Source of the DNA: a virus
Virus record (IMG/VR): IMGVR_UViG_3300024429_000008
Coordinates: 1 to 53,958 of that record
Direction: 5' to 3' (one strand)
Length of the DNA: 53,958 bases
This document shows positions 1-41,701 of this stretch, one piece after another (positions within the stretch are counted from its first letter, which is position 1; each line of letters begins with the position of its first letter). The notes beneath the pieces were generated by a model. The model did no database searches and was not told the DNA's origin. It saw only the letters and a list, made by a program, of their open reading frames with translations. The position numbers and the translations under genes are program-made.

Positions 1-584
1 ACTTCGAGATTCTAGGGACAAGTGCCAGCACGGATGATGTCGATCATAACGCCGAGGGTGGCCTGACCATGCAAACGGATGGAGCAAACGACGATCAGAT
101 CTTCGTTCATCCTCATCAGGATGCCAATCAGAGTCCCTGGAACTACGTGACGTGGGGGACGGATCAGGAAACCCGATACGAATGTCGGGTAGAGACCCCG
201 GTTGATGTAACCACGGGCATTCACCTAGTGGTAGGCTTGAAGACCGACCTGGATATGACGCTGAACGACGCCGACCTCGTCGTGTTCAACTACAACACGG
301 ATGACTCGGACCTGACATGGGGCGTGGTCGCCAACGTGAATAGTGGGACAGCTACGGATACCGATACCGGCGTCCCCTGCACTCCCGCGACAACCTACAT
401 TTTTGTAATCAAATTCGACGCAGCCGGAGTAGCCCACTGCTACATCAATGACCAGCTGGTGGCCGAGATCGATTTTGCTGGAGAGGCGGCAGACCTAAAA
501 CCATTTGTTGGCCTACAATCCCTGTCAGCAACGACAGACGAACTGGTCCTGATCGAGCAAAAGATCGGGCGGAACTACGCATAG
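1..584 (+). CDS. LamG-like fibre/appendage paralogue, 3' part (split by window edge)
   Basis: The frame is open from base 3, with no start inside the window, and ends at the TAG at 582-584. It continues the gene that starts at 53818: overlapping the window ends by the shared AC gives an in-frame protein of about 240 residues. It aligns by eye with the two next genes (shared NAEGG, VTWGTDQE and a KFDAAGV..CYINDQLV block). The last block resembles the strand pair of LamG/concanavalin-like domains (x-Y-I-N/D-G/D-x-x-V), common in phage fibre or appendage proteins that bind glycans. That role is inferred. An internal ATG at 69 exists but is unlikely to be the start, because homology extends upstream of it. 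Confidence 0.75.
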   Translation, partial: FEILGTSASTDDVDHNAEGGLTMQTDGANDDQIFVHPHQDANQSPWNYVTWGTDQETRYECRVETPVDVTTGIHLVVGLKTDLDMTLNDADLVVFNYNTDDSDLTWGVVANVNSGTATDTDTGVPCTPATTYIFVIKFDAAGVAHCYINDQLVAEIDFAGEAADLKPFVGLQSLSATTDELVLIEQKIGRNYA

Positions 585-593
585 GAGACTGAG

Positions 594-1340
594 ATGCCAG
601 GAATAGGTACTCTACTGAGCACGGACAGACGCGAGTGGATCTGGGTTGCTGGCGAGAATGGCAAGCCCGGGGCCGTTGGGGACCTAGTGAACACCTCCGA
701 AGCGATCCGCATGATCTCCGACCACGCCGTGCAGGTCCTAGGGACGAGTGCTGTTACAGCCTGTGTCTCCAACAACGCCGAGGGTGGAGTGGATATCGTA
801 ACGGCTGGGGCTGACAACGATCAAACCATCCTAGTACCCCACGAAACTACCAATGCCTGCTTGCTACACCCCGACACGATGACTTGGGGTTCAGACCGGG
901 GCACTGAATTCGAGGTCCTGTTCAAGACTCCTTCATCCATTGCGACGATCCTCATCATGGCGGGCCTGAAGGCAGATGACAGCCCTGTGGACCTGGCCAT
1001 TACGGATGCCGATCTGGCTGTGCTGCAATTCAATACAGATGACACCGACACGAACTGGGGTTCCGTCTCAGATACCACAGCGGGATCGGACATCGACAAG
1101 GATACCGGCCATGTCGTGGCGGCCAGCACCATCTACAAGTTTGGCTGGAAGTTTGACCATAAGGGCGTGTGCCATGTATTCATCAACGACGAAGAGGTTG
1201 ACGCGATCGACTTCTCTAATGATGCAGTGGACTTCATCCCTATGATTGCCGTGCAGTCACTAGACGGAGATACCTCAGCTACACCTGCCCTGACCGTATA
1301 TGGGTGGCGGCTGTCCCGACGTTTCGGGGCTTCAGACTAA
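594..1340 (+). CDS. LamG-like fibre/appendage paralogue 2
   Basis: The product is 248 residues. ATG at 594 follows an AGGAG site. Shared blocks with the flanking paralogues are a Trp-containing N-terminal hairpin (EWIWVAGENGKPG), a helix with EAIRM, NNAEGG, then the C-terminal KFDHKGVCHVFINDEEV strand pair typical of LamG/ConA-like jelly rolls. It is probably a virion surface protein. No catalytic motif is visible. Three tandem paralogues argue for duplication and divergence of a receptor- or glycan-binding module. Confidence 0.7.
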   Translation: MPGIGTLLSTDRREWIWVAGENGKPGAVGDLVNTSEAIRMISDHAVQVLGTSAVTACVSNNAEGGVDIVTAGADNDQTILVPHETTNACLLHPDTMTWGSDRGTEFEVLFKTPSSIATILIMAGLKADDSPVDLAITDADLAVLQFNTDDTDTNWGSVSDTTAGSDIDKDTGHVVAASTIYKFGWKFDHKGVCHVFINDEEVDAIDFSNDAVDFIPMIAVQSLDGDTSATPALTVYGWRLSRRFGASD

Positions 1341-1353
1341 AGGAGAAACTATC

Positions 1354-2088
1354 GTGAGAGCCGGTACAGAAGCCTTCACTACCAAAGAAACAGGTCGCAG
1401 AGACAGGCTAAACCTGATCTGGCACCCCCAACGAGGGAAACCTGCTATTTTAGCAGATTATACCAGTGCCACCGATGCTACCCGAATGATTGCTGATCCG
1501 GACATGCTGATTGGAGGGACTAACATCGCCTCTAATACTTCAGCAGCGGCCGTTGAAGGGGGGTTGTTCTTAGCAGTAACGGCTGATGCTACCAACGCCG
1601 TGGCTATCTCCCCTCATACCCTGGCCAACAACAGCATCTGGCAGCAAGTCACCTGGGGAACGGACCAGGAAGTGGAATGGGAAGCCCTCCTCCAGTATGA
1701 TGCGGTTATGACTGATCGACTCTTCAAGTGTGGACTGTGTCTATTGCCTGCAACCGTAGACCTGGGCACGGACAACGACCAGATCGGATGGATGGCCGAG
1801 GACGACGGGGTTCTCGATGTCATCGCTTCTATCAGCAACGCCGACGTGACCATAGCCGGAGTGCAAACTGTAGTGGCTAGTCAGTACATCCACTTCGCCA
1901 TCAAGTTCGACGCTACCGGAGTCGCCCGCACTTACATTGATGGGCGTGAGGTACAAGTGAATGGGTACTACCGAGGCAACGCCGTAGATCTATTCCCCTA
2001 CGTAGCTACGCTGGAGGACACTTCCGCAGGTGCTCACCCTAAGATCAACGTCCTGGGGATGGCCATCAGCCGGGCGATTGGTACATAA
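1354..2088 (+). CDS. LamG-like fibre/appendage paralogue 3
   Basis: The GTG start at 1354 is chosen because AAGGAG lies about 9 bases upstream, right after the previous stop; in-frame codons further upstream would overlap gene 2 heavily. The product is 244 residues. It shares ATRMIADPDML, VTWGTDQEVEWE and KFDATGVARTYIDGREV with its neighbours. An exact copy of the 11-base repeat (1397-1407) is read here as G-R-R-D-R-L, aligning with a related but non-repeat sequence in paralogue 2, so the word arose by substitution and not by insertion at this site. Confidence 0.7.
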   Translation: MRAGTEAFTTKETGRRDRLNLIWHPQRGKPAILADYTSATDATRMIADPDMLIGGTNIASNTSAAAVEGGLFLAVTADATNAVAISPHTLANNSIWQQVTWGTDQEVEWEALLQYDAVMTDRLFKCGLCLLPATVDLGTDNDQIGWMAEDDGVLDVIASISNADVTIAGVQTVVASQYIHFAIKFDATGVARTYIDGREVQVNGYYRGNAVDLFPYVATLEDTSAGAHPKINVLGMAISRAIGT

Positions 2089-2754: not shown

Positions 2755-3060
2755 ATGTTACCCGAGTCGATCCAGATTGGAGCTCACGTCTATTCTTTGA
2801 CACTGGTAGGTCGAAAGAAGTTACAGAAGAATCACACCGCCGAGGTTGATAACGAACAGAATCAAATCCGCATTTATCAGAAGTGCACCGCTTCCCGTCG
2901 GATCGAAGTACTATTTCACGAGGTCATCCATGCCATATTGGCTGGGACGCAATTCCCCATGGAAGAAGTGACTTGTACCATCCTGGGGGAAGGTTTGACC
3001 CAGCTCATCCGAGATAATCCTGAACTAATCAAACATGTACAAGATACCCTAGCCGAATAG
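2755..3060 (+). CDS. HExxH zinc metalloprotease-like protein
   Basis: The product is 101 residues. Residues around 66-70 read HEVIH inside a helix (VLFHEVIHAIL), the zinc-binding HExxH signature seen in small ImmA/IrrE-like and related phage metallopeptidase-fold proteins. A later Glu in the helix after the signature (EVTCTILGEGL) could be the third ligand. ATG at 2755 follows GGGGGAG. The substrate is unknown. It sits between the fibre block and the accessory operon. Confidence 0.7.
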   Translation: MLPESIQIGAHVYSLTLVGRKKLQKNHTAEVDNEQNQIRIYQKCTASRRIEVLFHEVIHAILAGTQFPMEEVTCTILGEGLTQLIRDNPELIKHVQDTLAE

Positions 3061-3200: not shown

Positions 3201-3241
3201 CTCCCAGCATTGGAAGCAAACAGCACGCACGGAGGATAATC

Positions 3242-3511
3242 ATGCAGAGACAAAGAGTGAAGGGTAGTAAGTGGATTTACTCAATGATCGTAGAGCATTT
3301 TCTCACCAAAGACATAGGGGTGTCACCCGATGGACTCGTACACTCCGATGGAAACGCCTTGTATTGTTGGGGAGTGAGCATAGCACGATGGCTAGACGGG
3401 ATACTACACGTGCGATCCCTAGAGGAATGTACCAAGAATAACGCAGTTCGGGAGGTCCGGGCTGGACTATTGGCAAGCTGCCAGGACAAGGCAGCCAACA
3501 GAAGGAGCTAG
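3242..3511 (+). CDS. Small protein leading the ubiquitin-like operon
   Basis: The product is 89 residues. ATG at 3242 is chosen for the GGAGG 6 bases upstream; frames further upstream run through the promoter. The N-terminus is basic and aromatic (MQRQRVKGSKWIYSMI), followed by a compact mixed region with two Cys (YCWG; EECTK). No family recognised. First gene of the operon, 4 bases before the beta-grasp gene, so it may be an accessory or target protein. Its start overlaps a degenerate copy of the repeat (GCAGAGACAAA). Confidence 0.7.
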   Translation: MQRQRVKGSKWIYSMIVEHFLTKDIGVSPDGLVHSDGNALYCWGVSIARWLDGILHVRSLEECTKNNAVREVRAGLLASCQDKAANRRS

Positions 3512-3515
3512 CAGT

Positions 3516-3749
3516 ATGAGCGAGGGCAACGCAATCAACATCACCATTAGGATGGGTGGGGATAGCCTGAATTTCACTTTCCCTAGAGGGACTACAATCG
3601 GGGTCCTGACGGAGGATGGGAGACTACGCGGGTCTGAAGATGCTACTGTACAAGTCAATGGGGTGCAAGCGGATGAGGACACGGTCCTCGAAGACGGGGA
3701 CTGTGTCTCGCAGACGAAAGTGCACGGCCAGCAGGGATCGGACAACTAG
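3516..3749 (+). CDS. Ubiquitin-like beta-grasp protein
   Basis: The product is 77 residues; ATG at 3516 follows AAGGAGCTAGCAGT. The pattern is that of a beta-grasp fold of the ThiS/MoaD/PRTRC-C type: an opening strand ITIRMGGDSLNFTF, a Pro-Arg-Gly-Thr-Thr turn into the helix, then VQVNGVQADEDTVLEDGDCV, the classic V-x-V-N-G … D-T-x-L-x-D-G-D-x-V motif. Downstream genes are E1-like and JAB-like, which fits a ubiquitin-like modifier. The C-terminus ends HGQQGSDN, not GG, so either the JAB protease exposes the single Gly or conjugation is atypical. A sulphur-carrier role is the alternative. Confidence 0.7.
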   Translation: MSEGNAINITIRMGGDSLNFTFPRGTTIGVLTEDGRLRGSEDATVQVNGVQADEDTVLEDGDCVSQTKVHGQQGSDN

Positions 3750-3763
3750 GTATGTTATTCGTG

Positions 3764-3819
3764 GGCAGAGACAGGGGGACCCCAGGGGATATTATGGTCC
3801 CCACCCCCCTGTCTCTGCC
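3764..3819 (+). repeat. Perfect 15-bp inverted repeat built on the 11-base word
   Basis: GGCAGAGACAGGGGG (3764-3778) and its exact complement (3805-3819) flank a 26-base loop. Both arms contain the dispersed 11-mer. It lies between the beta-grasp gene and the candidate E2 gene. No U-tract follows, so it is not a typical intrinsic terminator. It could cap or process the mRNA and so set different levels for the modifier and the enzymes. Confidence 0.85.
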
Positions 3820-3849
3820 ATTCTTGATGGGCTAGCTGGAGCAACTACC

Positions 3850-4212
3850 GTGGCAAAGTTTAAGGTTTGGCACCCGGATGGCGAAAGCCACGAGATTATG
3901 GGTGAACTCCGGATACTGACCAGTCAATGTGGACTCCACACTATATTGGCCATCCAGATGGTCCACCCAGTTACGAGTAGCGTGCCAGGTTACCAAGGGG
4001 ATCGGTGGGTCCCAGGAGTACTGTGTCCTATCAATCCTCTTTGTGTTATTGTAGACATGAAGTCAGACAAGATCTGCCACCATCCCCGCCGCCCGCTCAA
4101 CGAACAGCTTATGTCGGACCCGGCTTGGGAGTGGCTGAGGGATAATCCCACTTGGCCAAATGTGCTAGAGTTGGATTGGGAGAAAATGTGGCGTAAGGAG
4201 GATTGGGAATGA
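3850..4212 (+). CDS. Candidate E2-like conjugation protein (tentative)
   Basis: The product is 120 residues. GTG at 3850 is chosen because GGAG lies 8 bases upstream; the frame is open further upstream, but only through the inverted repeat. Features reminiscent of E2/UBC folds are a strand-rich start (FKVWHPDGESHEIMGELRIL), an HP dipeptide at residues 39-40, W53-x-P55, a Cys at 59 (GVLC), and a late R-P-L-N-x-x-L…WLRDNPTW segment like the E2 C-terminal helices. The HP-to-Cys spacing is longer than in typical E2s, so this is only a suggestion. Its position between modifier and E1 supports it. Confidence 0.4.
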   Translation: MAKFKVWHPDGESHEIMGELRILTSQCGLHTILAIQMVHPVTSSVPGYQGDRWVPGVLCPINPLCVIVDMKSDKICHHPRRPLNEQLMSDPAWEWLRDNPTWPNVLELDWEKMWRKEDWE

Positions 4213-4481
4213 GCTGTGATTGTATAAAACGTATTACCTTGCTGGTTGATCGACTCATCGAGTTGGAGGGCCGCGTAGGTATGATAGAGGCCAACTTGCG
4301 AGTAGCGGCGGAGGCTCTAGGCTTCCCGCCTTGGGATGAGGAAGTACATGGGGGAGGCTTTCCAGCGGAGGAGGATGAGGACCTTCCAGAGATAATCGGG
4401 GAAATTGGAGAGGAGTTTCCCTTTCCAGAGCTGGATGAGAATTTCCCTCCGGTGGAGGCAGAACTCGATGAAGAAAACTGA
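4209..4481 (+). CDS. Acidic coiled-coil protein in the ubiquitin-like operon
   Basis: The product is 90 residues. ATG at 4209 overlaps the upstream stop (ATGA) and follows AAGGAGG. Residues 1-35 form a Leu/Ile-rich helix with a C-x-C pair near the start (MSCDCIKRITLL). The remainder is very acidic, with repeated E/D-x-F-P motifs (EFPFPELDENFPPVE). No family recognised. Translational coupling suggests it works with the E1 and E2-like proteins, perhaps as an adaptor. Confidence 0.65.
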   Translation: MSCDCIKRITLLVDRLIELEGRVGMIEANLRVAAEALGFPPWDEEVHGGGFPAEEDEDLPEIIGEIGEEFPFPELDENFPPVEAELDEEN

Positions 4482-5190
4482 ACTGTTTGGACCAGGTTGT
4501 GAGTGGGTATTTGTGGGGTGCGGGGGGACTTTCTTTATGGCAATCCCTATATACTCCGTTTTGCTCCATAAGTACAGGCCCGGTAGCATTACGGTCATAG
4601 ACCCAGACCGTACAGAGCTGAAGAACTATGATCGACAATGGCCAGGGCGTGCCCCTGGACAGGAGAAGGCTCATCATGGCCGCGTCGCACTCGGTTGTCC
4701 AGGGGTCTCCATCGCGGAGCGATTCAATCCGAGTGATGAAGTTCTAATCGAGAGGACGGAGGGGAGACCAGTCGTAGCCATTGTGAATGTAGACAATGAC
4801 CAAGCCAGGCTAGACGTACACAGTTGGTTGGCGAGCCGGGTCAGCGATGGAGTTATGATAGATTCCGGTTGTGAAGCTGAGTACGGCCAATCTTGGGCCG
4901 GTATCTGGTTGGGTAGCAAGTGTATACACGATTGGTCGATTACTCACCCGAGTGTTGGGACGGTGGCCCCCGCAGCGGGGGGTGGATGTAGTCCACAGAC
5001 TGCTATGTCAAATCTTATGACAGCAACGTGCTCTGCCCTGATGATCGAAGAAGTAGTAAGATGGTTGCAAGCATTAGATGTAGGGATTCCACTGAGCATA
5101 CAGGAGTATGAATGGCAGATTTGGTCATCCAAGGGGGAAATTAGACTCTGGAATACTAAGATTCCTATACAGGTGGAAGGAAGTACTTGA
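4468..5190 (+). CDS. ThiF/E1-like adenylating enzyme
   Basis: The product is 240 residues from ATG 4468 (GGAGG 9 bases upstream; overlaps the previous gene). The Rossmann-type nucleotide loop VGCGGT is at residues 16-21. The strand-end acidic signature IDPD (44-47), followed by N53 and R-Q 56-57, matches the E1/ThiF/MoeB D-x-D…N…RQ motif. VDNDQAR (108-114) matches the ThiF D-N-x-x-x-R motif. A Cys at 174 in GGGCSPQ is a candidate thioester Cys, as in PRTRC-type ThiF proteins. Known family activity: ATP-dependent adenylation of a ubiquitin-like C-terminus. The partner is inferred to be the 3516 protein. Confidence 0.8.
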   Translation: MKKTELFGPGCEWVFVGCGGTFFMAIPIYSVLLHKYRPGSITVIDPDRTELKNYDRQWPGRAPGQEKAHHGRVALGCPGVSIAERFNPSDEVLIERTEGRPVVAIVNVDNDQARLDVHSWLASRVSDGVMIDSGCEAEYGQSWAGIWLGSKCIHDWSITHPSVGTVAPAAGGGCSPQTAMSNLMTATCSALMIEEVVRWLQALDVGIPLSIQEYEWQIWSSKGEIRLWNTKIPIQVEGST

Positions 5191-6215
5191 TGTTACATAC
5201 GTTAGAAGATATTTGGGAAGACCTTGAGGAGCAGCAATCCAAGCCTAGGGTAACGATGGGTTCTCCTCTCGGCGAGGAGCAACCACTCCTTGAATGGAAG
5301 GATTTAGAGAAGTACACCACGGATGAGAAAACCGACCTGACCATAGGCAGGGACAATCGAGTGTACGGAATACGGGGGGATGTTGTACAGTGTTGGGCTC
5401 CATTAGCACCTACGGGACCAGAGCAGGTATATCTGGATTGTGTCCGATGGGGGAATGCACCTCCCCTAGAACACCTGGCCCATCTGTTTGAACATTTCTT
5501 CCAGAAGTATGATCAAGAAGTGATTATGCTAGTCGGCCAGAAATTGAATGGATCAGAGTGGCTGTACTTTGTACCTCCCCAAGTGGGGACGGGGGGAGGG
5601 GTGAAGTGGGATATCCGGGGGGAGGCTGCAAAAGAATTCACTGGCTTGGCTGTATGGATAGGAACGATCCATAGCCACCCTGGAAATTGCACCAGCCCCA
5701 GTACAGTAGACGTTAGCGAGTGGGCTGATCCCTTATGCTCTGGTATCCACATGATACTAGGGAACGATGGGAGTTATACTTATCATGGAGCCATCGTCGG
5801 GAAAACATTCCCCCTGAAGAGCGGGACTCTAGAAGGGGTTATGCCAGCACCGGTATGGTGGCGACAAAGTGGTGGGCGTAGCTTGGGAGAGTTGCTGCGG
5901 ACTCCACCCCCACTACCGCCTCCAACGCCCACTGTTAAGACGGTGGATACGACCGCGAGGCCCTTTCCCCGACTCCTAAGAGACGAGATCCCTCACCAGA
6001 TTACTCAAGACGAACCCGGACTCCCACCCGACTCCTATTCGTCCCTCGCCTGCGACCGGGATGACCTGGATGATTTACGGATCGTGTTCTCCGGGAATGC
6101 GGTTTGGATTATGACCTCTCTGGAATGCAGCGTTTGGATGAGTGAAAATCCCAGCCTCAGCTCCGAGGTAGAGATTCGGACGCTGCGGATTCCCAACGGA
6201 GGAGAGCCATCGTGA
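5190..6215 (+). CDS. JAB/JAMM (MPN) metalloprotease, putative deconjugase
   Basis: The product is 341 residues from ATG 5190, overlapping the E1 stop and preceded by GGAAGG. The JAMM zinc motif is exact: H161-S-H163, seven residues, S171-T-V-D174 (H-x-H-x7-S-x-x-D), following a strand-helix stretch with a candidate catalytic Glu. Known family role: isopeptidase or processing protease acting on ubiquitin-like tails. The N-terminal ~100 residues and a Pro-rich C-terminal region (residues ~235-265) are extensions of unknown function. No NlpC/P60 domain is attached, unlike tail-assembly JAB proteins. Confidence 0.82.
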   Translation: MLHTLEDIWEDLEEQQSKPRVTMGSPLGEEQPLLEWKDLEKYTTDEKTDLTIGRDNRVYGIRGDVVQCWAPLAPTGPEQVYLDCVRWGNAPPLEHLAHLFEHFFQKYDQEVIMLVGQKLNGSEWLYFVPPQVGTGGGVKWDIRGEAAKEFTGLAVWIGTIHSHPGNCTSPSTVDVSEWADPLCSGIHMILGNDGSYTYHGAIVGKTFPLKSGTLEGVMPAPVWWRQSGGRSLGELLRTPPPLPPPTPTVKTVDTTARPFPRLLRDEIPHQITQDEPGLPPDSYSSLACDRDDLDDLRIVFSGNAVWIMTSLECSVWMSENPSLSSEVEIRTLRIPNGGEPS

Positions 6216-7966
6216 CCCTTAATGAGGTTGTACAACAAGCTATACGGGACCTAGGAACTGTTGACGGCCAGGCATCCGTGAGTGAATACACTAAGACATA
6301 CCCCTACATGGCTGTCCTAGAAACAGAGATGACATCCCGAGTATATCAGGTACTGGAGAGCGTCGTGGGAGGGTCCCCTGACTTCCCCTCACAACATGTC
6401 CACATGAGGCCGTTCCTACCAGATCGTCAGGATATTGATGGAATTTTGTGGGCTGGGGTACCCTCTCTCACCTGTTCAGGGGAATCTGAAGGAGGAGCTC
6501 TAATATTCCACCAGTTCTATGAGGGGCCACCCGAATCCCCCATCGGACCCGTAGCGTTGAGGATTATGCCTGGTCTCCAAGAGACTGACCTAGCTTTCGT
6601 CCCTATGCGATGTAATCGCCTTCGAGAAGTAATGCAAATTAGGGGAGGCCACCAACTTGATGATCCTCCAGAGCAATTCCCAATCGGCTATAATCGGGCC
6701 TGTCAGCCACGGGTGGATCATATAGCCGCCGCGATTATGGCCCTGGGAACGCATCCCGGGACACCTGGAATAGCCTTCCGAGGGTTGCTAGGGGATACCC
6801 CCATCGCAGTTTTTGCCCGGAGTTTGTGGGAGAACCTGTATCGAGATAAGGGTCCACTCTCCCTACAGACAGTAGGCTCACGCTTCGCCCATGCAGCAAA
6901 AATGGTCTTGGCTTATGCTTACCCGACGATGATGAGCCACCCCACATTGGAGGACTTGAAGTGTATTAGGCAGACTCTCAGGCATCCCCTTTGGAGCCTA
7001 GAGGAGGCGTGGCCAACCTATTACAACCTTGTAGTACCCCCTTCTCTCTTTCAGGCCGCTAGAGAATGCATGACTCAAGGACATACCCCTATCATACCCC
7101 AATACATAACATCTACCGTATGGTTATTCAACGGTGGTAGAGATAATTACTGTTTAGGGACTGATCCCAATCCGGGGAATTCTTGGTGGGCCAAGAAGGT
7201 TTGGGCCGGGATGCACTCCGGATTCAATCTCGACATATCGGGTGAATTCTCTAAGTGGCCGGGGCCAATCCCAGCGGAGTGGGCAACTCTGTTAGTACAG
7301 GCCATGCAGGATCAACAGGAAGAAACCCCACACCTGCGAGCTAGCCAGCAGACTGATGCAGGACTAGAGAAGGCCCGGAACGTACCCTGCATGTTCCGGT
7401 GTGTAGACTCAAGCTATGTAACTTCCTTGATCTACAATTTAGTCGATGCCTCGGGTGAGGTGCAATGCTGTGATGGTAACGGGGTTCCCCAAGAGGTCCC
7501 GCCATGCTCGGACCCCCCCTCCAACCCTTTTGAGAGAGAAGATGATGAAGAAAACGAAGATGACGTGTGTGCAGAGTGTAGAGGATCCTTCGATGACTAC
7601 ACAGTCTGCGGGAATTGCCACGAAATCATTTGTTCGGACTGTCACAGTCGCCCTGAAGGGCATGGGGAGTGTAGGTTCTGCCCATGTTGTCGCGACGATA
7701 CAGACCCCCACTATCGGGTTGATATGGCCCCTTGTCACCTTTGTGGCCGCCTCATTTGTAGTGACCACTATGACCATTGCGAGAGCTGCCTGCACTATAT
7801 CTGCTCTGCCTGTGAGTCTGCAGGAGATCACGCCTGTTCCCCCTGCGAAAGGTGCGGTGGACTATCCGACACCCTAGGTACATGCGAACGCTGTGGGACA
7901 GAAGGTCTATGTGCAACCTGCCGCGAGGGTTGCTGCCTCCTCACACAAGCTGACACGGAAGGATAA
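6212..7966 (+). CDS. Large protein with RING-like Cys-rich C-terminus, candidate E3
   Basis: The product is 584 residues from a GTG overlapping the JAB stop, after GGAGGAG. Residues 1-430 match no family I recognise. From about residue 450 a dense zinc-binding region begins: C-x2-C-x9-C-x2-C-x4-C-x2-C-x9-C-x2-C-x-C-C, then a second array (CHLCG, CSDH, CESC, CSAC, CERCG, CERCG, CATC). The first set has RING/treble-clef-like spacing. In a ubiquitin-like operon this points to an E3-like or substrate-recruiting role, but other zinc-ribbon functions are possible. An acidic linker (EREDDEENEDD) separates the halves. Confidence 0.65.
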   Translation: MTLNEVVQQAIRDLGTVDGQASVSEYTKTYPYMAVLETEMTSRVYQVLESVVGGSPDFPSQHVHMRPFLPDRQDIDGILWAGVPSLTCSGESEGGALIFHQFYEGPPESPIGPVALRIMPGLQETDLAFVPMRCNRLREVMQIRGGHQLDDPPEQFPIGYNRACQPRVDHIAAAIMALGTHPGTPGIAFRGLLGDTPIAVFARSLWENLYRDKGPLSLQTVGSRFAHAAKMVLAYAYPTMMSHPTLEDLKCIRQTLRHPLWSLEEAWPTYYNLVVPPSLFQAARECMTQGHTPIIPQYITSTVWLFNGGRDNYCLGTDPNPGNSWWAKKVWAGMHSGFNLDISGEFSKWPGPIPAEWATLLVQAMQDQQEETPHLRASQQTDAGLEKARNVPCMFRCVDSSYVTSLIYNLVDASGEVQCCDGNGVPQEVPPCSDPPSNPFEREDDEENEDDVCAECRGSFDDYTVCGNCHEIICSDCHSRPEGHGECRFCPCCRDDTDPHYRVDMAPCHLCGRLICSDHYDHCESCLHYICSACESAGDHACSPCERCGGLSDTLGTCERCGTEGLCATCREGCCLLTQADTEG

Positions 7967-7993
7967 AAATGGCAAAGACAGGAGATGTGGATC

Positions 7994-8536
7994 ATGCAGC
8001 TCCAGTATAATCGGTGTCCTAACGATCCCAACTTGCCAGTAGTCTCCCATGTAGGAATGACCGGTGATGGCAAGGTTGTTGAGGTAGGGCTCGCTGAGAT
8101 AACTAGTGCCCTGTCTCTGTACAGTGCTGCGTGTGTGGTAACTCTGGCAGCAAGGAATGGTATAGTTCCAGATTTCGTTACCCGCGTTGCGATGGCACTA
8201 ACACTTCCAATGAAGGAGGACCCCCATGGATTGTGTCTCCCCACGAAAATACTCATGGAGGCGAGCCTGATCCTGCAAGGACAGAAAATCCTGATGGATG
8301 AAAGGGGTCTCTTGCATACTGATATGGGGAGGCAGGACGGAATAGACCTTTTGAAAGGGTGCTCTCCCCATGTAGAACAGCCACCGTGTTGCAGAGACAG
8401 GCAAAAGATGCTGGAGGCTCTGGAGGATTTGACTAACCAAATGGGGCCTACCTTCGAAGTCGTGGAAGCACATTGTGGTCTAATCGTAGCTGGTTGTTGG
8501 AAGACTGCCCGAACGATTGTCGAATCGGCGGAGTGA
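7994..8536 (+). CDS. Hypothetical protein, last gene of the ubiquitin-like operon
   Basis: The product is 180 residues. ATG 7994 is chosen with GGAG 9 bases upstream; ATG 7985 would sit directly against the site. A 13-codon frame starting at 7969 could be a leader. Contains a hydrophobic helical segment (LYSAACVVTLAA) and several Cys (GCSPHVEQPPCC). No family recognised. Two repeat copies lie inside: exact at 8391-8401, one mismatch at 8110-8120. Followed by the 22-bp repeat at 8564. Confidence 0.65.
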   Translation: MQLQYNRCPNDPNLPVVSHVGMTGDGKVVEVGLAEITSALSLYSAACVVTLAARNGIVPDFVTRVAMALTLPMKEDPHGLCLPTKILMEASLILQGQKILMDERGLLHTDMGRQDGIDLLKGCSPHVEQPPCCRDRQKMLEALEDLTNQMGPTFEVVEAHCGLIVAGCWKTARTIVESAE

Positions 8537-8762: not shown

Positions 8763-9062
8763 ATGGCGAATAGGAATCCAGCGGTGGCAGCCCCTGCAGG
8801 GAGCCCTTATGGGGCGAGTAATTGCAGCGTTTCGATGGACGACGACGATATTGTCATCCGTATATGGGGTGGGCACACTCTTGGCAAGGCAGGTGAATGG
8901 AAAAAGCCGGAATTGGCCGACGATGATAAGGTCGGCAAGGTGAAGGCGGAAGCGTACCGGTCCGATCCTAAGAACATGAGGCGTAAGAACCTGATCGGTA
9001 CGACCGGTGGATTCTGCCGATTGGGCGAATTCAGTGTCAGTGTGAATGTCACCACGGACTAG
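8763..9062 (+). CDS. Hypothetical 99-residue protein
   Basis: ATG 8763 is the first gene after the 8650 promoter. A strongly polar protein with an acidic cluster (MDDDDIVIRIWGG) and a basic C-terminal half. No family recognised. Having its own strong promoter and a 5' hairpin suggests high expression, possibly early in infection. Followed by a hairpin built on the 11-mer. Confidence 0.65.
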   Translation: MANRNPAVAAPAGSPYGASNCSVSMDDDDIVIRIWGGHTLGKAGEWKKPELADDDKVGKVKAEAYRSDPKNMRRKNLIGTTGGFCRLGEFSVSVNVTTD

Positions 9063-9081
9063 GCCACCGGCGGGAATAGAA

Positions 9082-9146
9082 GCAGAGACAGGCAGGGGAG
9101 CGGCCTAAGACTATACCGGATCCGAACCGCCCCCCCCTGTTTCTGC
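9082..9146 (+). repeat. Imperfect inverted pair of the 11-base word (hairpin)
   Basis: GCAGAGACAGG (9082-9092) and CCTGTTTCTGC (9136-9146, one mismatch) are in inverted orientation. The pairing extends inward through GGGG…CCCC and GCGG…CCGC. It sits right after the stop at 9062. No strong U-tract follows, so it may be a weak terminator or an mRNA 3'-end stabiliser. Same architecture as 3764-3819. Confidence 0.7.
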
Positions 9147-9171
9147 TCTCTCCCATGAGAGGTATCGAGAA

Positions 9172-9405
9172 ATGTCACTAACAGCGGATGGATTTGTGCG
9201 ATGCACTCTGGACGAAGCTGGAGCTGAAGGTGCCGCCGGATGCTTGACCTGCGGCTGGATTTACACGCCTCAAGGCGACGACGCCTTCTGGCGTACACCG
9301 CCGGAGGCACATGGAGGGCCATACCTATGCGACCGGTGTGGGAACGAAGACCTATATGGGTTGATAGGATTAATGTTCCAGGGCCTAGTTGAATGGACGG
9401 TATGA
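9172..9405 (+). CDS. Small zinc-finger-like protein
   Basis: The product is 77 residues. Two Cys pairs, CLTCG (residues 24-28) and CDRCG (residues 53-57), suggest one zinc knuckle. The C-terminal end is hydrophobic. Function unknown. The stop overlaps the next small gene. Confidence 0.65.
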   Translation: MSLTADGFVRCTLDEAGAEGAAGCLTCGWIYTPQGDDAFWRTPPEAHGGPYLCDRCGNEDLYGLIGLMFQGLVEWTV

Positions 9406-9524
9406 TGATTGAGGCAATCCTTCAGGCGAGCGGCTGCGGGATTCTAGGGCTTATGATGGCAACCATTTTGACGCCTGGATTCTGTGGGGTATACCAGTGG
9501 TTGGAACGGCAGTTTGAGGATTGA
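9402..9524 (+). CDS. Tiny membrane protein (40 residues)
   Basis: Starts with ATGATG overlapping the stop of the previous gene. One hydrophobic segment (GILGLMMATILTPGF) and a charged tail ending RQFED. The ribosome site is weak (GGACGG), consistent with translational coupling. Confidence 0.5.
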   Translation: MMIEAILQASGCGILGLMMATILTPGFCGVYQWLERQFED

Positions 9525-9544
9525 GGAACTGGGAGGGTAAAGCT

Positions 9545-9754
9545 ATGGTGAAATACGTTATGCATCGCAAGGTGGATGGGGTGTTCTATGCTCGCAAAGG
9601 GGATGCTGGCCCATCCGGAGCTTACACAACGAGTCTCCTCAGTGAAGCTACAATCTATAACCACCTGAACCCGTGGGCTTCCAGCCCCATCGTAGCGGCC
9701 TGGGAAGCTATACCGGTTCGGGTCAAGGTGACCTACCTGGAGGATGAGAATTAG
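9545..9754 (+). CDS. Hypothetical 69-residue protein
   Basis: ATG 9545 is chosen with GGAGG about 9 bases upstream. Soluble, basic N-terminus (MVKYVMHRKVDG) and mixed alpha/beta character. No family recognised. Confidence 0.6.
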   Translation: MVKYVMHRKVDGVFYARKGDAGPSGAYTTSLLSEATIYNHLNPWASSPIVAAWEAIPVRVKVTYLEDEN

Positions 9755-40920: not shown

Positions 40921-41412
40921 CTAAGAGTTCTCTTCTATCACTCGCCTACCTCGTGGTGTCAACTCGAAGCAGAGACAGGATCGGTTCCCAGCTACCACCT
41001 TCTCAGGCAACGAGCGAATCCAACCCTGGTCTCGCAGTCGGGACATCAATGAGGACAGACTCATCTGTTCAAGACGGAATTTGGTGGCCAATCTCGATAC
41101 AGGCTGGGGTCCATTCCGCAATTCGTCCATGATCGTCTTGGTACGTCCGCCGTATGAATAGGTGGGCTGCCCATTTTGCCACACGGGTACGACACCACCG
41201 TACTCTTGACCCACCCATACTATGACCTTCCGGCCCTTGGGGCTCTTCCGTCGGGTCTGGCTATCCAGAATCAACTCGTCTTTGCAGAGCCGGGTGAAGC
41301 AAGGGTACACGGTCTGAGGCAAGTTGCCTGTCTCTGCCACTGCTTCAAATGCTGTTAAGCCCTTGGGTCCTCGAGCCTGGATCATTTGCAGTACCCTTTT
41401 CTCAACCCCCAT
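40921..41412 (-). CDS. Winged-helix DNA-binding protein
   Basis: The product is 163 residues with two probable winged-helix units: residues 1-65 (VLQMIQARGPKGLTAFEAVAETGNLPQTVYPCFTRLCKDELILDS…) and 90-160 (IMDELRNGPQPVSRLATKFRLEQMSLSSLMSRLRDQGWIRS…). It could be a transcription regulator, and is one candidate to bind the 11-base repeat. Two exact repeat copies lie in its own gene (40969 and 41327). It starts inside the end of the groES-like gene. Confidence 0.65.
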   Translation of the reverse strand: MGVEKRVLQMIQARGPKGLTAFEAVAETGNLPQTVYPCFTRLCKDELILDSQTRRKSPKGRKVIVWVGQEYGGVVPVWQNGQPTYSYGGRTKTIMDELRNGPQPVSRLATKFRLEQMSLSSLMSRLRDQGWIRSLPEKVVAGNRSCLCFELTPRGRRVIEENS

Positions 41413-41701
41413 CAGGGACCTCCCTCTCCGTGAAGACTATCATAACGTCTTCCTCCTGCATGACTAGCACAAGTTCATCAGCTATGCACAATGTTGTGAA
41501 ACCATAGTTCAAGAAAACGATCTCGTCCCCGACTTTCAGGGTTTGCACATCAGGACCCGCAATCAGGACGGTCCCAGTCTGTGTGGGTGTCCGAGCCTGG
41601 TCCGGGATCACAATGCCTCCTGCAGATACAGCTTCGGGGTCATCCCGCCTCACCAGGATTCGGTCAGCCAAGGGCTGGGGGTACTTCGTTATCTCGCTCA
41701 T
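41402..41701 (-). CDS. groES: GroES-like co-chaperonin
   Basis: The product is 99 residues. PLADRILVRRDD…SAGGIVIPDQA…TGTVLIAGPDVQTLKVGDEIVF … EEDVMIV follows the Cpn10 pattern from end to end, including the mobile-loop region (AGGIVIP). Phage GroES proteins replace or adapt the host co-chaperonin for capsid folding. No GroEL is encoded here. Confidence 0.88.
   Translation of the reverse strand: MSEITKYPQPLADRILVRRDDPEAVSAGGIVIPDQARTPTQTGTVLIAGPDVQTLKVGDEIVFLNYGFTTLCIADELVLVMQEEDVMIVFTEREVPDGG

Follow-up and report, generated by a model that had tools for sequence, protein, structure and literature searches.

Most bacterial Ubl cassettes studied to date are host systems such as CBASS, Bil and Bub, and the archaeal SAMPs are established examples of Ubl systems that operate without an E2. 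In PRTRC operons (type 6d in Iyer et al. 2006), a small Ubl, a helical protein and the E2-like protein B accompany E1 and JAB (PMC1779556), and in siderophore operons a set of Ubl, E1 and JAB genes lacking an E2 serves sulfur transfer (PMC1779556). Our literature search, which covered few subscription papers and no preprints, turned up no description of a phage Ubl cassette that includes an E1. A conserved phage lineage with its own E1, Ubl and JAB, plus a new protein dedicated to them, would place tagging machinery on the viral side. Such a cassette is also a small system for asking whether a new protein can host E2-like chemistry and whether zinc modules arrived as optional targeting parts.

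A Ubl cassette shared by five phages

The window analysed here is a 53,958-base IMG/VR record of an uncultured bacterial virus, which carries terminase, DNA polymerase, primase/helicase and GroES-like genes. Its Ubl, E1 and JAB genes all lie upstream of, and on the same strand as, the gene for a 'zinc-tailed protein', the least understood core protein of the phage Ubl cassette (Table 1). This gene has a GTG start codon with GGAGGAG ahead of it and shares 4 bases with the end of the JAB gene, stop codon included. JAB likewise overlaps the E1 gene, and the cassette is translationally coupled. The earlier note, written without knowledge that the DNA is from a phage, was right to place a protein of about 580 residues in a Ubl operon, as the 584-aa ORF lies beside genes for a Ubl of ThiS type, a ThiF/PRTRC_ThiF-like E1 and a JAB with an intact JAMM motif.

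Table 1. Coordinates of cassette genes and protein features in the window
Feature	Position	Strand	Remarks
Small ORF X	3230..3511	+	Upstream of Ubl; blastp E 3e-5 (L002), 5e-4 (L006)
Ubl, ThiS/MoaD type	3516..3749	+	77 aa; C-terminal end ...HGQQGSDN
ORF 3616..4212	3616..4212	+	3' part (~3750-4212) after Ubl; seen in window and L005 only
Small helical/acidic ORF	4203..4481	+	Between Ubl and E1; weakly matches L006:5784-5990
E1-like activating enzyme	4468..5190	+	GCGGT, D-P-D, N..RQ, invariant Cys174
JAB/JAMM metalloprotease	5187..6215	+	Prok-JAB E 4e-5
Zinc-tailed protein gene	6212..7966	+	584 aa; N-domain of no recognised family plus zinc tail
N307...C314	7130..7153	+	Sole invariant Asn and sole invariant Cys among five homologues
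Zinc module M1	7568..7681	+	Residues 453-490
Zinc module M2	7733..7846	+	Residues 508-545; 34% identical to M1
Zinc module M3	7844..7936	+	Residues 545-575; last loop shorter; 27% identical to M1
ORF Y	7985..8536	+	Downstream of zinc-tailed gene in 5/5 phages

Scans of IMG/VR with E1 and JAB retrieved four further phages of 49-55 kb each (L002, L005, L006 and L007) with the same cassette, and the order Ubl, E1, JAB, zinc-tailed protein homologue, ORF Y is common to all five. One additional record, L020, was fetched by an E1 DNA pattern and dropped as a chance match. When the zinc-tailed protein or its alignment was the query, no relatives were found in IMG/VR, phages or plasmids, and scans of genome contigs with E1 and with a phage E2 likewise returned no relatives. 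Because the related phages were reached only via E1 or JAB, the perfect linkage between the N-domain of the zinc-tailed protein and Ubl genes is partly by construction.

The zinc-tailed protein homologues, one copy per phage, share 17-39% identity, and leave-one-out profiles recover each of the five with E values from 2e-15 to 8e-95. The N-terminal ~400 residues are kept in every phage and lie beside E1 and JAB in all five, albeit in phages that were found via E1 and JAB. The comparison of N-domains comprises five sequences, and the homologous records may themselves be incomplete. Since a profile built from any four of the homologues retrieves the fifth, the N-domain is an old and conserved part of the cassette.

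The window Ubl is ~43% identical to its L002 and L006 counterparts, which match Pfam ThiS with E values of 3e-4 and 9.5e-5, respectively. The L006 copy scores 23.3 bits, above the Pfam cut-off of 22.5, and its C-terminal residue is G. The L005 Ubl (L005:3104-3331) is an exception in that it ends GGKQAA, without a terminal Gly, and may be cleaved after an internal Gly or be inactive. In the same phage, an ORF at L005:1206-2144 carries long Ala-rich low-complexity repeats of the type EAADRAATWAASRAAT.

By profile comparison the E1 is related to PRTRC ThiF and is no member of that family. It weakly matches ThiF (E 0.007), and among NCBIfam families PRTRC_ThiF scores best (E 2e-4). The alignment of the E1 family with PRTRC ThiF by hhalign reaches 96% and E 1e-9, and the E1 score against TIGR03736 (PRTRC ThiF), at 20.5 bits, is below the NCBIfam cut-off of 144.75. 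The JAB family relates to PRTRC protein A (hhalign E 0.0012), including the N-terminal alpha+beta region, and its JAMM motif E...H-x-H-x10-D is complete, with E111, H162, H164, S172 and D175 invariant in all five phages.

Several smaller genes accompany this core. ORF X keeps its position in L002, L006 and L007 (5079-5351 in the last), and L002 and L007 have a small ORF that resembles the helical/acidic ORF by position. ORF Y matches its counterparts in L002 (E 4e-19), L006 (7e-21) and L005 (0.026), and the L007 copy lies at 9216-9641. The ORF that overlaps the end of the Ubl gene aligns with L005:3757-4113 (28.7% identity, E 1e-10). We considered its 3' part as an E2 and rejected it, as it has no Pfam, PHROG or NCBIfam match and no conserved Cys, and is confined to these two phages.

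Elsewhere in the window, a small SprT-like/metalloprotease-like protein is encoded at 2755-3060 (+; PHROG 1233, E 3e-12), just 5' of the Ubl cassette, and this position is kept in related phages. Three consecutive ORFs at 69-2088 (+) have a common lectin- or tail-spike-like repeat, HPHxxxN...W.....TWGTD, and ORFs with repeats of this type also lie 5' of the cassette in L002. The GroES-like gene mentioned above, a phage co-chaperonin, occupies 41402-41701 (-; PHROG E 1e-15).

The zinc tail

The 141-residue tail of the zinc-tailed protein contains 12 CxxC pairs, whereas 5000 shuffles of the same residues average 4.6 and reach 12 only once. The cysteine spacing described in the earlier note, C-x2-C-x9-C-x2-C-x4-C-x2-C-x9-C-x2-C, is exact and has one occurrence, at residues 453-490. 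The 'second array' reported to follow is also present, as arrays at residues 508-545 and about 545-575. The tail therefore consists of three tandem modules of an eight-ligand type, each C-x2-C-x(9-11)-C-x2-C-x(4-5)-C-x2-C-x(3-9)-C-x(0-2)-C, of which M3 shares or neighbours C545, such that its ligand assignment is tentative. The L002 and L006 homologues have one such module each, and seven Cys positions are shared by all five modules.

The homologues of L007 and L005 end without a zinc tail, which leaves the tail in three of the five cassettes. A tail hidden by a frameshift in L007 was rejected, as none of the frames of 9001-9300 encodes a module. L006 is closely related to L007, with 60% identity between their E1 proteins, and only L006 has a module; thus, zinc modules come and go. 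Given that the tail is missing from two cassettes whose N-domain is conserved, we regard it as accessory, and the N-domain, rather than the zinc array, as the conserved functional part.

This pattern counts against the proposal that the protein is a RING-type E3, in which the zinc modules would recruit a Ubl-charged E2, either from the host or unrecognised, and the N-domain would recognise the substrate. The eight-ligand modules and the spacing first noted recommend this proposal, as do the weak Pfam matches and the structural comparison by VIA described below. However, the fourth and fifth ligands are separated by 4-5 residues in FYVE, PHD and B-box fingers and by 2-3 in RING fingers. This gap is x4 or x5 in all five phage modules, which fit the FYVE/B-box core pattern C-x2-C-x4-C-x2-C(H). 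Consecutive ligands of M1, M2 and M3 do not fit the RING pattern C-x2-C-x(9-39)-C-x(1-3)-H/C-x(2-3)-C-x2-C-x(4-48)-C-x2-C, and a loose RING regular expression fits the modules only when cysteines are skipped. RING profiles stay below their curated cut-offs (zf-RING_10 12.9 bits versus 31; zf-RING_5 10.2 versus 27.9), and isolated modules give very weak Pfam matches to zf-RING_10 (0.12) and IBR (0.005), and also to B-box.

A profile built from the modules hits the FYVE-type finger of Slp4 with E 0.0011, and two shuffled profiles in which the cysteines were held fixed score 0.086 and 0.00031, the latter against rabphilin. Since such shuffles score as well, the Slp4 match reflects cysteine spacing only, and we dropped the idea that the modules are homologous to FYVE zinc fingers after a shuffle had beaten the real match. 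The shuffles match FYVE-type chains equally well, which also counts against a RING-type E3.

A low-confidence model of M1, built from the five modules (pLDDT 62.7), has the order strand, knuckle, strand, knuckle, helix that is expected of a treble clef. When this model was compared with known structures by VIA, the rows at Z 2.0-3.1 were all RING or B-box chains, with 36-45 of 47 residues covered; the highest of them belong to the RING protein Hakai (3VK6), although their title reads phosphotyrosine binding domain. Foldseek returned nothing at E<=0.001 with the same model. B-box and RING-like treble clefs belong to one group (PMC4506424). Judging from this model, the modules probably adopt a binuclear treble-clef fold, and a rubredoxin-like ribbon is less likely. 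Hence the fold half of the original RING/treble-clef suggestion survives at low confidence, in that the model falls in the RING/B-box/PHD group and is not a ribbon, whereas its RING half is not supported by the ligand spacing or by any profile above its cut-off, and the fold comparison by Foldseek added nothing significant.

The E3 reading is weakened by a tail that is optional and a spacing that is not RING. Moreover, no E2 that could serve as a partner was found in the five phages. We therefore consider a RING-type E3 highly doubtful.

The N-domain and Cys314

The statement that the N-terminus belongs to no recognised family is borne out by searches of Pfam, PHROG, NCBIfam and PDB sequence families, none of which gave a match. 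Its sole invariant Asn and sole invariant Cys, N307 and C314, form an E2-like FN-x6-C-x-G (one homologue has WN, and one has S for G). R190, D382 and R389 are further invariant residues of the N-domain in the five homologues. After the Cys motif, four homologues have FN-x-D, and FCTH occurs only in L005; a conserved His downstream of the Cys, a feature of 6d-type E2 proteins, is not found across the five homologues. PRTRC protein B has an invariant FN-x7-C-x-G followed by FTHPN, and the spacing in the N-domain is one residue shorter. PFPN-x-YGD-x2-MC-x-G precedes SPFN-x-DL in the Prok-E2_D proteins of Salmonella phage Arash and Vibrio phage D69, a pattern that resembles the FN......C.G...FN.D seen here.

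We could not extend this resemblance to an assignment of the N-domain to PRTRC protein B or Prok-E2_D (PF14460), as the respective hhalign E values of 0.31 and 0.44 are not significant and there is no Pfam match. A test limited to the neighbourhood of Cys314 gives a value of ~0.1 (14-17 of 150 decoys score equally well) for an N-x6-C-x-G motif that was spotted before being tested. The full-length model (mean pLDDT 35) places a helix just ahead of the Cys motif and has a possible beta-meander followed by ~140 residues that are largely helical, an order of elements that differs from a standard E2; with such a pLDDT, this whole-protein model was set aside for fold claims. On the primary structure, the E2-like motif is suggestive, and we treat it as a real lead to a relation that is unproven.

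E2 profiles match nothing in the five phages, and the zinc-tailed protein is therefore a candidate for the E2 slot. PRTRC operons, which have relatives of this E1 and JAB, hold an E2 as their remaining enzyme, which is one argument for a role in transfer. We tentatively favour the possibility that the zinc-tailed protein is the transfer or targeting factor of the phage Ubl cassette, with Cys314 as the candidate catalytic residue and the zinc modules as accessory parts. In such a scheme, E1 would adenylate the Ubl, and the N-domain would receive the activated Ubl, probably as a Cys314 thioester, in the manner of a divergent E2-like protein or a Cys-transferase. The N-domain would then hand the Ubl on to proteins of the phage or of its host. 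The zinc modules would bind partners or substrates rather than act as a catalytic ligase, and JAB would trim the Ubl tail and strip the tag. A bolder version, which we judge unlikely, is a self-contained conjugation system in which one protein of new fold fuses an E2-like thioester step at Cys314 with swappable zinc targeting modules, thereby uniting the parts of E2 and E3, and with which the infecting phage tags host proteins or its own.

Other explanations do without transfer chemistry in the N-domain. E1 alone might attach the Ubl to the zinc-tailed protein or to virion or host proteins, in which case the zinc-tailed protein would be no enzyme and would act as a scaffold or as a nucleic-acid or protein binder with zinc fingers. 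The N-domain lacks a match to an enzyme family, short treble-clef modules are often purely binding, and E2-less Ubl systems such as the SAMPs exist, all of which would suit a target or adaptor. However, no cassette lacks the N-domain, and its N307, C314, R190, D382 and R389 do not vary, which fits an active site better than it fits a passive target, and we rate this explanation as somewhat unlikely.

A second such explanation is sulfur chemistry, whereby E1 and JAB would yield a Ubl thiocarboxylate and the zinc-tailed protein would use the sulfur. The Ubl is of the ThiS type, and the E2-less sets of the siderophore operons provide a precedent (PMC1779556). Yet no rhodanese match was found in the five phages with a search whose control profile was positive in 13 of 14 genomes, although the host could supply one. 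Moreover, no sulfur-acceptor enzyme was recognised, and the E1 is closest to PRTRC ThiF, which comes from an E2-bearing system. A sulfur carrier thus seems improbable.

Comparison with known systems

Among known systems, the PRTRC operons are one of the closest to the phage cassette; for these we drew on plasmid examples such as NZ_CP086300. Both have a profile-related E1 (hhalign 1e-9), a JAB whose N-terminal alpha+beta region is related to PRTRC A (E 1e-3), a small, free-standing Ubl that ends near K-x-G or K-G, and a compact operon. Unlike PRTRC, the phage cassette has no relatives of proteins B (E2), E or F that hhalign could detect with any of the phage families, its Ubl resembles ThiS and shows no detectable relation to PRTRC C, it resides in a phage genome, and it includes the zinc-tailed protein as an extra component.

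Salmonella phage Arash (OQ632216) and Vibrio phage D69 (OZ195729) share with our phages a JAB and an E1 in one phage-borne cluster. They differ in having a separate Prok-E2_D, and we saw no zinc-tailed protein there; furthermore, the Ubl-like protein of D69 is a tandem of three repeats. In Arash, the genes for Prok-E2_D-like, JAB and E1 (ThiF 8e-15) proteins are adjacent at L003:1519-4539, and its E2 and E1 carry annotations as structural proteins, possibly because they were detected in virions. D69 (L004:1388-5945), as also D148 and D181, encodes JAB, E1, Prok-E2_D and the three-repeat Ubl-like protein of 263 aa, which in D69 ends GTKG, as does PRTRC C.

The ubiquitin operon of Caldiarchaeum subterraneum, to which the locus had been likened, also brings together a Ubl with a C-terminal extension, an E1, a JAMM protease and a zinc protein (PMC5654768). 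The analogy fails on the class of E3, as srfp in that operon is a small RING-H2 protein that works with a true, separate E2 (PMC5654768), whereas the phage spacing is not RING and no E2 was found. With FYVE-type and B-box fingers, the modules have in common the core C-x2-C-x(n)-C-x2-C-x4-C-x2-C, but nothing past Cys spacing according to the shuffle controls, and they stand in tandem on a phage protein. Finally, lambda- and T1-type tail assembly pairs a phage Ubl (TAPI) with a JAB (TAPK) (PMC1779556) and has no E1, whereas the cassette described here adds both an E1 and a dedicated extra protein.
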